Made by a program: the position numbers and the translations under genes. This document shows positions 36,556-43,982 of a DNA stretch of 64,000 nucleotides, in pieces. The stretch is taken from positions 186,001 through 250,000 of the forward strand of contig CABYRQ010000001.1 of assembly GCA_902521485.1 (NCBI GenBank), in the 5' to 3' direction. Under the pieces are notes generated by a model. That model saw nothing but the letters and a program-made list of their open reading frames with translations, made no database searches and had not been told where the DNA came from. The stretch is from an uncultured Alphaproteobacteria bacterium. GTDB lineage: Bacteria; Pseudomonadota; Alphaproteobacteria; HIMB59. The stretch's first letter is position 1, and every line of letters begins with the position of its first letter.

Positions 36556-37101
36556 TTGAATAGACCCTTTAATAGAAATAATAACTTTCGTGGCAAGAAA
36601 GATCTTCATAAGATAAATAACTTTATTAGTTCCGAAGAAGTAAGAGTTATATTAGATGATGGTGAACAACTTGGGGTTATGAATAAAAAAGAGGCTATAA
36701 GCATCGCTCAAGGTAGAGGTATGGACTTGGTTGAGATTGCCCCAAACAATAAACCCCCTGTGTGTAAAATTGTCGATTATGGCAAATTTAAATATCAAGA
36801 ACAAAAAAAGAAAAACGAGGCAAAAAAAAAGCAGAAAGTAATTGAAACCAAAGAACTTAAAATTAGACCGGGTACTGGTGATCACGATTATCAAGTAAAA
36901 ATAAAGAACGCTCAAAAATTTCTTAAAGAGGGAAATAGAGTTAAATTTAGCTTAAGGTTTAAGGGCAGAGAAATGGAACACTCTAATTTAGGCATAGAAA
37001 TGCTTAAAAGAGTAAAAAATGACTTAGAGGATATTATTAGAGTTGAAATGGAACCTAAAATTGAAGGAAGACAAGCTTTCCTCGTTGTTGCACCAAAATA
37101 A
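36556..37101 (+). CDS. infC: Translation initiation factor IF-3
   Basis: This 181-residue protein has an IF3 N-terminal domain (VRVILDDGEQLGVMNKKEAISIA and MDLVEIAPNNKPPVCKIVDYGKF-type residues, about 29-85), a Lys-rich linker (KKKNEAKKKQKVIE) and an IF3 C-terminal domain (KELKIRPGTGDHDYQVKI and MEHSNLGIEML). It controls start-codon fidelity. No ATG precedes the conserved region; TTG 36556 is the best candidate, in line with infC genes elsewhere that use rare start codons for autoregulation. The thrS gene that often lies upstream is absent. rpmI and rplT follow. Confidence 0.94.
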   Translation: MNRPFNRNNNFRGKKDLHKINNFISSEEVRVILDDGEQLGVMNKKEAISIAQGRGMDLVEIAPNNKPPVCKIVDYGKFKYQEQKKKNEAKKKQKVIETKELKIRPGTGDHDYQVKIKNAQKFLKEGNRVKFSLRFKGREMEHSNLGIEMLKRVKNDLEDIIRVEMEPKIEGRQAFLVVAPK

Positions 37102-37109
37102 ATTTTATG

Positions 37110-37190
37110 ATAACTAATTGACTTCGATAAGTCGAAAAGGCTTTAACAATAGGGTATGCCTTAAGACTTAGTAAACAAACCTAAAAGGAG
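37110..37190 (+). ncRNA. Structured leader before rpmI-rplT (candidate autoregulatory element)
   Basis: The 94 bases between infC and rpmI contain a perfect hairpin GACTT-CGAT-AAGTC at 37120-37133 and a second one with arms AAGGC (37137-37141) and GCCTT (37158-37162). A second copy of GACTT at 37165-37169 can pair with the same AAGTC (37129-37133), giving two mutually exclusive folds. A strong Shine-Dalgarno AAGGAG lies just before rpmI. In E. coli and Bacillus, L20 represses this operon by binding a leader that mimics 23S rRNA, so an L20-responsive element is plausible. No homology to a known leader class was established. Confidence 0.45.
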
Positions 37191-37195
37191 AAAAA

Positions 37196-37396
37196 ATGCC
37201 CAAACTTAAAACAAAAAGTAGTGTAAAAAAACGCTTCAAAAAAACCTCGTCTGGGAAATTAGTTGTCGGAAACGTTGGTAAACGTCATGGCATGTCTAAA
37301 AGAACAAACTCTTTTATAAGAAATTCAAAAGGTACAAGAGTTTTATCAAAATCTGCATCAATAATAATTGACTCAATGATGCCATATTCTAAATAG
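37196..37396 (+). CDS. rpmI: 50S ribosomal protein L35
   Basis: This 66-residue, very basic protein starts [20 protein letters not shown] ('pKmKTk..a.KRFk.TgsGk'), the standard L35 N-terminus, and continues [18 protein letters not shown]. Length and motif are canonical. A good Shine-Dalgarno (AAAGGAG) precedes ATG 37196. It sits between infC and rplT in the usual order, with a structured leader upstream. Confidence 0.96.
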
Positions 37397-37412: not shown

Positions 37413-37772
37413 ATGCCAAGAGTTAAAAGAGGAGTTACAGCAAGAGCTAAACATAAAAAAGTTTTTGAATTTACAAAAGGTCATCGTGGTAGAAGAAAGA
37501 ATGTTTATAGAGTAGCTACACAAAGCATGGATAAAGCCCTCCAATATGCTTATCGCGATAGAAGAAATAAAAAAAGAGACTTCAGGGGACTTTGGATTCA
37601 AAGAATTAACGCTGGTGTTAGAGAACATGGTTTAACATATGCAAAATTTATTAATGGATTAAAGAAGGCTAATATCGAAATCAATAGAAAAATTCTCTCT
37701 GAAATTGCATTTCATGAACCTGCTGCTTTCAAATCAATAGTTGAGAAAGCAAAGGCTAATTTAGCCAACTAA
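37413..37772 (+). CDS. rplT: 50S ribosomal protein L20
   Basis: This 119-residue protein starts [20 protein letters not shown] ('pRvkrGv.ar.rHkkvl..akG') and contains [20 protein letters not shown] and [20 protein letters not shown], all diagnostic of L20. It is an early assembly protein that binds 23S rRNA and in characterised bacteria represses its own operon. A Shine-Dalgarno AAGGAG lies upstream of the ATG. pheS follows after 6 bases. Confidence 0.97.
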
Positions 37773-43892: not shown

Positions 43893-43982
43893 GGAGAGAT
43901 GGCCGAGTGGTTTAAGGCGCACGCCTGGAACGCGTGTATAGGGGCAACTCTATCGTGGGTTCGAATCCCACTCTCTCCGCCA
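43893..43982 (+). tRNA. tRNA-Ser (anticodon GGA)
   Basis: This 90-base tRNA starts GGAGAGA and closes with TCTCTCC, G and an encoded CCA. The anticodon stem CACGC/GCGTG encloses the loop CTGGAAC, giving anticodon GGA (Ser, codons TCC/TCT). A long variable arm (TATAGGGGCAACTCTA region) and the T-loop GGTTCGAATCC are typical of class II tRNAs. It sits inside a patch of surface-sugar genes, and a glycosyltransferase begins five bases after CCA. Confidence 0.97.

Follow-up and report, generated by a model that had tools for sequence, protein, structure and literature searches.

A putative start-codon pseudoknot in the rpmI–rplT leader of Alphaproteobacteria, probably a feedback brake on ribosomal protein production

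How is the rpmI–rplT transcript controlled in the Alphaproteobacteria, a class with several laboratory models, for which such control appears to be undescribed in the sources searched? The question is raised here by the 94-nt infC–rpmI spacer of a marine alphaproteobacterium (HIMB59-like), which holds a leader. In the window, the whole 64,000-nucleotide stretch of DNA that was analysed, this spacer lies on the forward strand between its upstream neighbour infC, encoding translation initiation factor IF3 (36556–37101, a 181-amino-acid open reading frame with a TTG start), and rpmI, encoding bL35 (37196–37396, a 66-amino-acid open reading frame; the window's genome matches TIGR00001). The next gene on the same strand, rplT (37413–37772, 119 amino acids), encodes bL20, the presumed regulator. 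The names infC and rplT are presumed from sequence character and gene order, as are those of the pheS-like and pheT-like open reading frames that lie 3′ of rplT. Strain HIMB59 is assigned to the Pelagibacteraceae by NCBI, and the records titled Pelagibacteraceae have a clearly different rplT (67–73% identity). The only match to Rfam at the gathering threshold in the window is a tRNA gene at 43893–43979.

Proposed operator and its relation to known bL20 control

By sequence comparison, the leader is composed of an outer helix, an inner GGC/GCC stem (S1) and a loop whose end, directly before GCC, is complementary to the first two codons of rpmI, the start codon among them, a pairing denoted S2. 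The loop strand reads XGGCAU in most of the class loci that carry the motif (86 of 115) and GGGUAU, facing AUGCCC, in the window. These comparisons make it almost certain that a pseudoknot able to sequester the rpmI start codon is real, and its repression of translation is very likely. That bL20 is the ligand is fairly probable by analogy, because bL20 is encoded in the same operon and controls that operon in E. coli. L20-type control, which had been suggested from the sequence of the spacer, is thus plausible, and our favoured reading, held with fair confidence, is of a cis-acting translational operator of the rpmI–rplT transcript in which bL20 stabilizes a start-codon pseudoknot. The leader hairpin is probably a feedback brake on ribosomal protein production.

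In the proposed mechanism, S1 and S2 would stack on each other to form an H-type pseudoknot, with the AUG occluded and the Shine–Dalgarno sequence left in the long loop. When rRNA is short, free bL20, the product of the second gene of the transcript, would bind and stabilize the pseudoknot, and 30S subunits would then be unable to place the start codon; bL35 would be repressed directly and bL20 by coupling. When there is little free bL20, the weak S2 would open and translation would proceed. The element gives sharp predictions, namely pairing of the start codon and RNA-level selection on the silent site of codon 2.

The same pseudoknot may instead answer to another regulator (bL35, IF3 or temperature) or act as a fixed damper without a ligand, which we consider an appreciable but clearly less probable reading. 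The sequence comparison points to no particular ligand, and a pairing as short as S2 could come apart, by melting or displacement, with no protein involved. However, bL20 is the regulator of this operon in both E. coli and B. subtilis (available portion of PMC10931766), and the presence of a conserved irregular stem beside the pseudoknot is suggestive of a binding site. The E. coli rpmI–rplT genes are repressed by bL20 by way of a pseudoknot near the start of rpmI, rplT being affected by coupling (available portions of PMC10931766 and PMC6962249), and bL20 is the ligand that we retain for the proposed operator.

The alphaproteobacterial element resembles the E. coli bL20 operator in having the same genes, in the translational level expected for its action and in a pseudoknot near the rpmI start. 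According to the available portions of the two sources, E. coli has a promoter for the two ribosomal protein genes inside infC (PMC10931766), and its pseudoknot extends from within infC to a point six bases short of the start codon (PMC6962249). The alphaproteobacterial element, in contrast, lies wholly in the short spacer and the start region, and its S2 contains AUG and codon 2; because its pseudoknot contains the start codon at which the E. coli one stops short, it is new relative to the E. coli form. The second bL20 site of the E. coli-type operator is an irregular hairpin, and the sites resemble helices H40–41 of 23S rRNA. The internal loop in the window's genus has an invariant AA (37135–37136) opposite what is mostly AA (37163–37164); no AA dimer, as found in known bL20 sites, was noticed as common to the class loci.

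The Firmicutes bL20 leader (B. subtilis), named L20_leader in Rfam, is comparable as a bL20-controlled leader of infC–rpmI–rplT. It lies before infC and acts by transcription attenuation (available portions of PMC10931766 and PMC6097659), whereas the alphaproteobacterial element is situated 3′ of infC and is without an Rfam match. The L20 motif of the Deltaproteobacteria is a predicted bL20 leader that was found by comparison (Eckert and Weinberg 2020, available portion of PMC7247131). Compared here by its description only, this motif has a helix between two consecutive G–C pairs and an AA dimer, and the words pseudoknot and start codon are absent from the main text (PMC7247131).

Rfam 15, at the gathering threshold, gave no leader match in the window or in 29 loci (9 + 20, with L001 being the window's own), in agreement with the sequence-only reading, which had seen no obvious match to the known Firmicute or E. 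coli forms. Among low-threshold matches, ES239 was far below its gathering score, and the preQ1-II riboswitch (RF01054), another class with a pseudoknot in the vicinity of the start region, was rejected because the window's leader scored 18.3 bits (E value of 2.3) where the gathering score is 47. No alphaproteobacterial rpmI leader is described in the literature searched, a scope that excludes supplementary tables and most subscription journals. In their available portions, a 2009 Pelagibacter survey (PMC2704228), a 2010 survey (PMC2864571) and the 2020 leader survey (PMC7247131) name none, and the words rpmI, rplT, infC, L20 and L35 are absent from a 2005 alphaproteobacterial survey (PMC1273637).

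Helices and start-codon pairing in the window's genus

Spacers of the window's genus were drawn from 46 loci; L023 gave none, and the Pelagibacteraceae-like L047 was excluded from the alignment. The alignment (A3) comprises the 37 distinct sequences of 45 usable genus spacers, each with 12 bases of rpmI, and includes the window's own (L001). The segments from which pairings had been proposed are all in place in the window: GACTT at 37120–37124, AAGTC at 37129–37133, AAGGC at 37137–37141, GCCTT at 37158–37162 and GACTT at 37165–37169. It had been proposed that AAGTC pairs either with the first GACTT, in a 5′ hairpin, or with the second, in an outer helix, as a switch between two exclusive pairings, and that covariation among related spacers would bear on both helices. 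Compensatory changes above those in shuffles were found in the outer helix, which upholds the claim of a structured leader before rpmI–rplT, and none above shuffles were found in the 5′ hairpin.

The outer helix (AGUC/GACU; 5′ strand 37130–37133, 3′ strand 37165–37168) shows compensatory GC, AU and GU changes on both strands, with all three types present at two pairs. Across the 37 leaders, 82.2% of cells are paired over five pairs, compared with 76.2% in shuffles; 21 cells are changed on both sides, compared with 9.4; and the covariation is 0.374, compared with 0.234. None of 500 shuffles was as high on any of these three measures, and the helix beats every slid version of itself on paired cells, two-sided cells and covariation score. 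There is no excess in the number of pairs with a two-sided change (3, with 369 of 500 shuffles as high) or in that of further pair types (8, with 388 of 500 as high), and the fifth outer pair, 37129–37169, is not kept, being unpaired in 32 of the 37 genus leaders. The window's leader alone folds no better than shuffles (z of −0.06), so that the single sequence is within chance.

The alternative 5′ hairpin (37118–37124 with 37129–37135) was rejected, since 63.8% of cells in its five core pairs are paired across the 37 leaders, the same as in shuffles (63.5%, with 250 of 500 reaching as high a value), and its covariation shows no excess. That AAGTC alternates between this hairpin and the outer helix is most improbable. 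The window does hold both pairings, and the 5′ bases are paired in the proportion just given, but the hairpin has a predicted energy in the window of −5.0 kcal/mol against −10.5 kcal/mol for the outer plus inner stems, two leaders (L036 and L041) retain GACC bases where pairing is no longer possible, and the 5′ arm overlaps or precedes the predicted transcription start. With the outer pairing real and the 5′ hairpin lacking covariation beyond shuffles, the proposed switch is therefore unsupported.

Inner stem S1 pairs 37137–37141 with 37158–37162. Its GGC/GCC core is invariant in the 37 leaders, with GGC at 37139–37141, the position at which the class-wide rule given below demands GG(C/U), and with an invariant GCCT in the 3′ strand, which abuts S2 directly. 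The other pairs vary among A–U, G–U and G–C without two-sided changes, and 93.0% of cells in the stem are paired.

The loop sequence GGGUAU (37152–37157), directly before GCC, is complementary to AUGCCC (37196–37201), which is the rpmI start codon together with the Pro2 codon. The six pairs include the start codon, one of them being U–G, and had been missed in the sequence-only reading. The complementarity is present in all 45 genus spacers, each of which has GGGUAU in the loop and CCC as codon 2; both strands are invariant in the 37 distinct leaders, and S2 cannot covary in the window's genus for this reason. In the 40 ATG-started frames of at least 200 amino acids in the window, CCC accounts for 65 of 579 proline codons (11%). 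The Shine–Dalgarno sequence AAGGAG (37185–37190), invariant in the alignment, would be positioned in the long loop of the pseudoknot.

In another family of the order, 22 of 23 spacers have CCC as the second codon of rpmI, and the loop reads GGGCA in 21 of 23, with AGGCA and UGGCA in one each; S2, formed here with UGCCC, is 98.3% paired. Four pairs of the stem in this family are changed on both sides, a number equalled or exceeded in 24 of 500 shuffles, and the covariation score of the stem was reached in 2 of 500. The predicted energy of the S2 duplex is −6.6 kcal/mol for GGGUAU and −8.6 kcal/mol for GGGCAU.

Distribution in the class and pairing with codon 2

A further 150 alphaproteobacterial loci (30 + 100 + 20) were surveyed for the region upstream of rpmI. 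They were picked as the highest-scoring matches to L35, with mostly one to three from each family, and are a non-random sample. The rpmI start was recognised in 141 of the 150 and in 46 of 50 controls from non-alphaproteobacterial Pseudomonadota, and the rest were dropped. The motif was defined by a fixed rule, consisting of GG(C/U), a loop, the base X, GG(C/U), then AU, AG, A or U, then GCC, at a distance of 20–160 nt before AUG. X is the base 5′ of the second GG(C/U), and its expected partner is the third base of rpmI codon 2.

The motif precedes rpmI in 115 of the 141 alphaproteobacterial loci, compared with 8.5 in dinucleotide shuffles, and in 2 of the 46 controls, compared with 1.5; the remaining 26 sampled alphaproteobacterial loci are without it. 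The motif together with a Watson–Crick X is present in 105 of the 141. All 45 spacers of the window's genus also carry it, with X complementary to the third base of codon 2. Among named records, the motif is carried by L074, L075, L087, L089 (Kiloniellaceae), L120, L133, L140 (titled Proteobacteria), L142 (Inquilinus limosus), L146 (Parvibaculum sedimenti), L147 and L148; it is absent from L118 (titled Chromatiales), and the rpmI start was unrecognised in L141 and L144. A strict pattern that includes AUGCCCAA, applied to 398 genomes of the phylum, gave hits that begin bL35 in 8 of 8 cases within the same class, and 0 of its 10 hits in 9 other genomes precede bL35. This pattern is insensitive, reaching 8 same-class genomes and missing the window's own because the window has GGGTAT.

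Among the 115 motif loci, the loop strand is GGCAU in 86, GGCU in 24, GGUAU in 4 and GGUU in 1. The GGGCUGCC class loci, such as L153, L172, L183 and L189, have the shortened S2 strand GGCU (24 of 115). Pairing in this class is limited to GGGC:GCCC, leaving the A and U of AUG free, and these loci are perhaps a distinct subtype. At L160, the sequence is GGU...UGGCAU-ACC with the codon CCU, and an S1 pair is apparently changed on both sides (GGC/GCC to GGU/ACC).

The relation between X and codon 2 was tabulated for the 112 loci with one motif, the three loci with two motifs being excluded; relatedness was controlled by sampling across families only, with no tree. Watson–Crick combinations comprise G/CCC at 90 loci, C/CCG at 5, A/CCU at 4 and U/CCA at 3, and the remainder are one wobble G/CCU, one wobble U/CCG and eight unpaired loci. 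The resulting 102 of 112 compares with a permutation mean of 75.9 (s.d. of 2.3 and maximum of 87; 0 of 100,000 as high), and 0 of 50,000 permutations within GC quartiles were as high. Watson–Crick combinations make up 12 of the 20 non-CCC loci, where 6.2 would be expected, and 277 of 50,000 permutations were as high. When the congeners L225 and L363 (both C/CCG) are removed, 100 of 110 loci are Watson–Crick against 77.1 (s.d. of 2.13 and maximum of 89 in 20,000 permutations). By their family labels, the Watson–Crick non-CCC loci L155, L161, L198, L227, L232, L239, L242 and L278 belong to eight different families, L239 having its motif at the far edge of the allowed distance (159 nt); L357 (C/CCG) and L232 (A/CCU) are members of the same family. 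Codon 2 is CCC in 95 of the 115 motif loci, compared with 9 of the 26 motif-less loci (Fisher P of 3e-6). No link to the third base of codon 2 was seen for the three loop positions that precede X in 97 loci, a set composed of 103 regex cores minus six that were dropped by eye (L171, L201, L202, L213, L225 and L270). It is hardly credible that the conserved GGGCATGCC is a near-palindromic DNA operator or that the link to codon 2 is a base-composition bias, since, although GGGCATGCCC is palindromic, the window form GGGTATGCC and the GGGCTGCC class are non-palindromic, X covaries with a coding base at least 41 nt away, also within GC quartiles, and CCC is rarer where the motif is absent.

For the outer arm at the 112 loci, the nearest GG(C/U) was taken as the 5′ strand, and stems scored 12.19 on average, compared with 7.99 (s.d. 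of 0.32) after 3′ flanks had been exchanged between loci (0 of 200 as high). When the choice of strand is repeated in the same way for real and exchanged flanks, the scores are 13.65 and 9.39 (s.d. of 0.33), respectively, again with 0 of 200 as high. An earlier score on 97 loci (13.0 against 7.99, s.d. of 0.37) was biased, the 5′ strand having been chosen with the real flanks in view. The commonest subtype (A2), represented by 26 of 27 loci after exclusion of L159 as near-identical to L158, has two-sided changes at 7 of 11 pairs and 93.3% of cells paired, a covariation that is flattered because the loci were chosen for pairing. This number of pairs with a two-sided change was reached by 62 of 500 shuffles.

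The junction varies by lineage (1 by 2, 3 by 3 or a bulge, with 3 by 2 in the window's genus), and model R1, which was built from the commonest subtype, fails to find the window's leader. For these reasons, the kinship of the window's leader with those of the class is judged by the hairpin, the complementarity of S2 and the location, rather than by a model score. A structured RNA with covariation is kept directly upstream of a ribosomal protein gene across the lineage, the pattern by which ribosomal protein leaders are recognised.

Promoter elements and the SAR11 lineage

A −10 element of an rpmI–rplT promoter is predicted on the forward strand at 37106–37116, either as TATGAT (37106–37111) or as the extended −10 TGATAACTA (37108–37116), with a start at approximately 37118–37124. 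Leader positions A6, T7, G8, T10, A11 and A15 are invariant in the 37 genus leaders. In the other family of the order (A4), TTG and TATAA are invariant and about 16–18 bases apart. Across the class, a TATAA-like hexamer is present at most 70 nt 5′ of GGC in 71 of 112 loci, compared with 13 in a segment further upstream, and in 48 of those 71 loci it lies 17–28 nt before GGC. With such promoter-like elements just upstream, the predicted transcript seems to start near the base of the outer helix. The transcript map of Caulobacter includes an operon with rpmI and rplT (Fig. 6A legend, available portion of PMC4117421).

SAR11 offers a natural example of a lineage with neither the device nor the leader. 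The motif is present in 0 of 63 loci titled Pelagibacteraceae or Pelagibacterales (among L076–L150), and codon 2 is CCC in 3 of the 63. No Shine–Dalgarno-like string was found in the last 20 bases before rpmI at these 63 loci, whereas 45 of 45 loci of the window's genus have one. A TATAAN hexamer ends 7–12 bases before AUG in all 63, the distance being 11 bases in 44 of them. From the position of this hexamer and the missing Shine–Dalgarno string, the SAR11 rpmI message is predicted, and seems, to be near-leaderless. Because the motif is widespread in the rest of the class, we infer that its absence from SAR11 is a loss.

On balance, we lean towards regarding the element as a further bL20 scaffold, an H-type pseudoknot whose loop would capture the start codon and codon 2, with a synonymous codon kept for RNA pairing. 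This scaffold would probably be ancestral to most Alphaproteobacteria, retained in the HIMB59-like lineage and lost in the SAR11 Pelagibacteraceae as their rpmI became near-leaderless. If true, it would be a further independent answer to the question of how bL20 reads its own message.

One genome of the survey, G015, has a second rplT contig (L047, G015:C111) with a spacer similar to that of the SAR11 Pelagibacteraceae, and this contig is probably a contamination of the G015 assembly.
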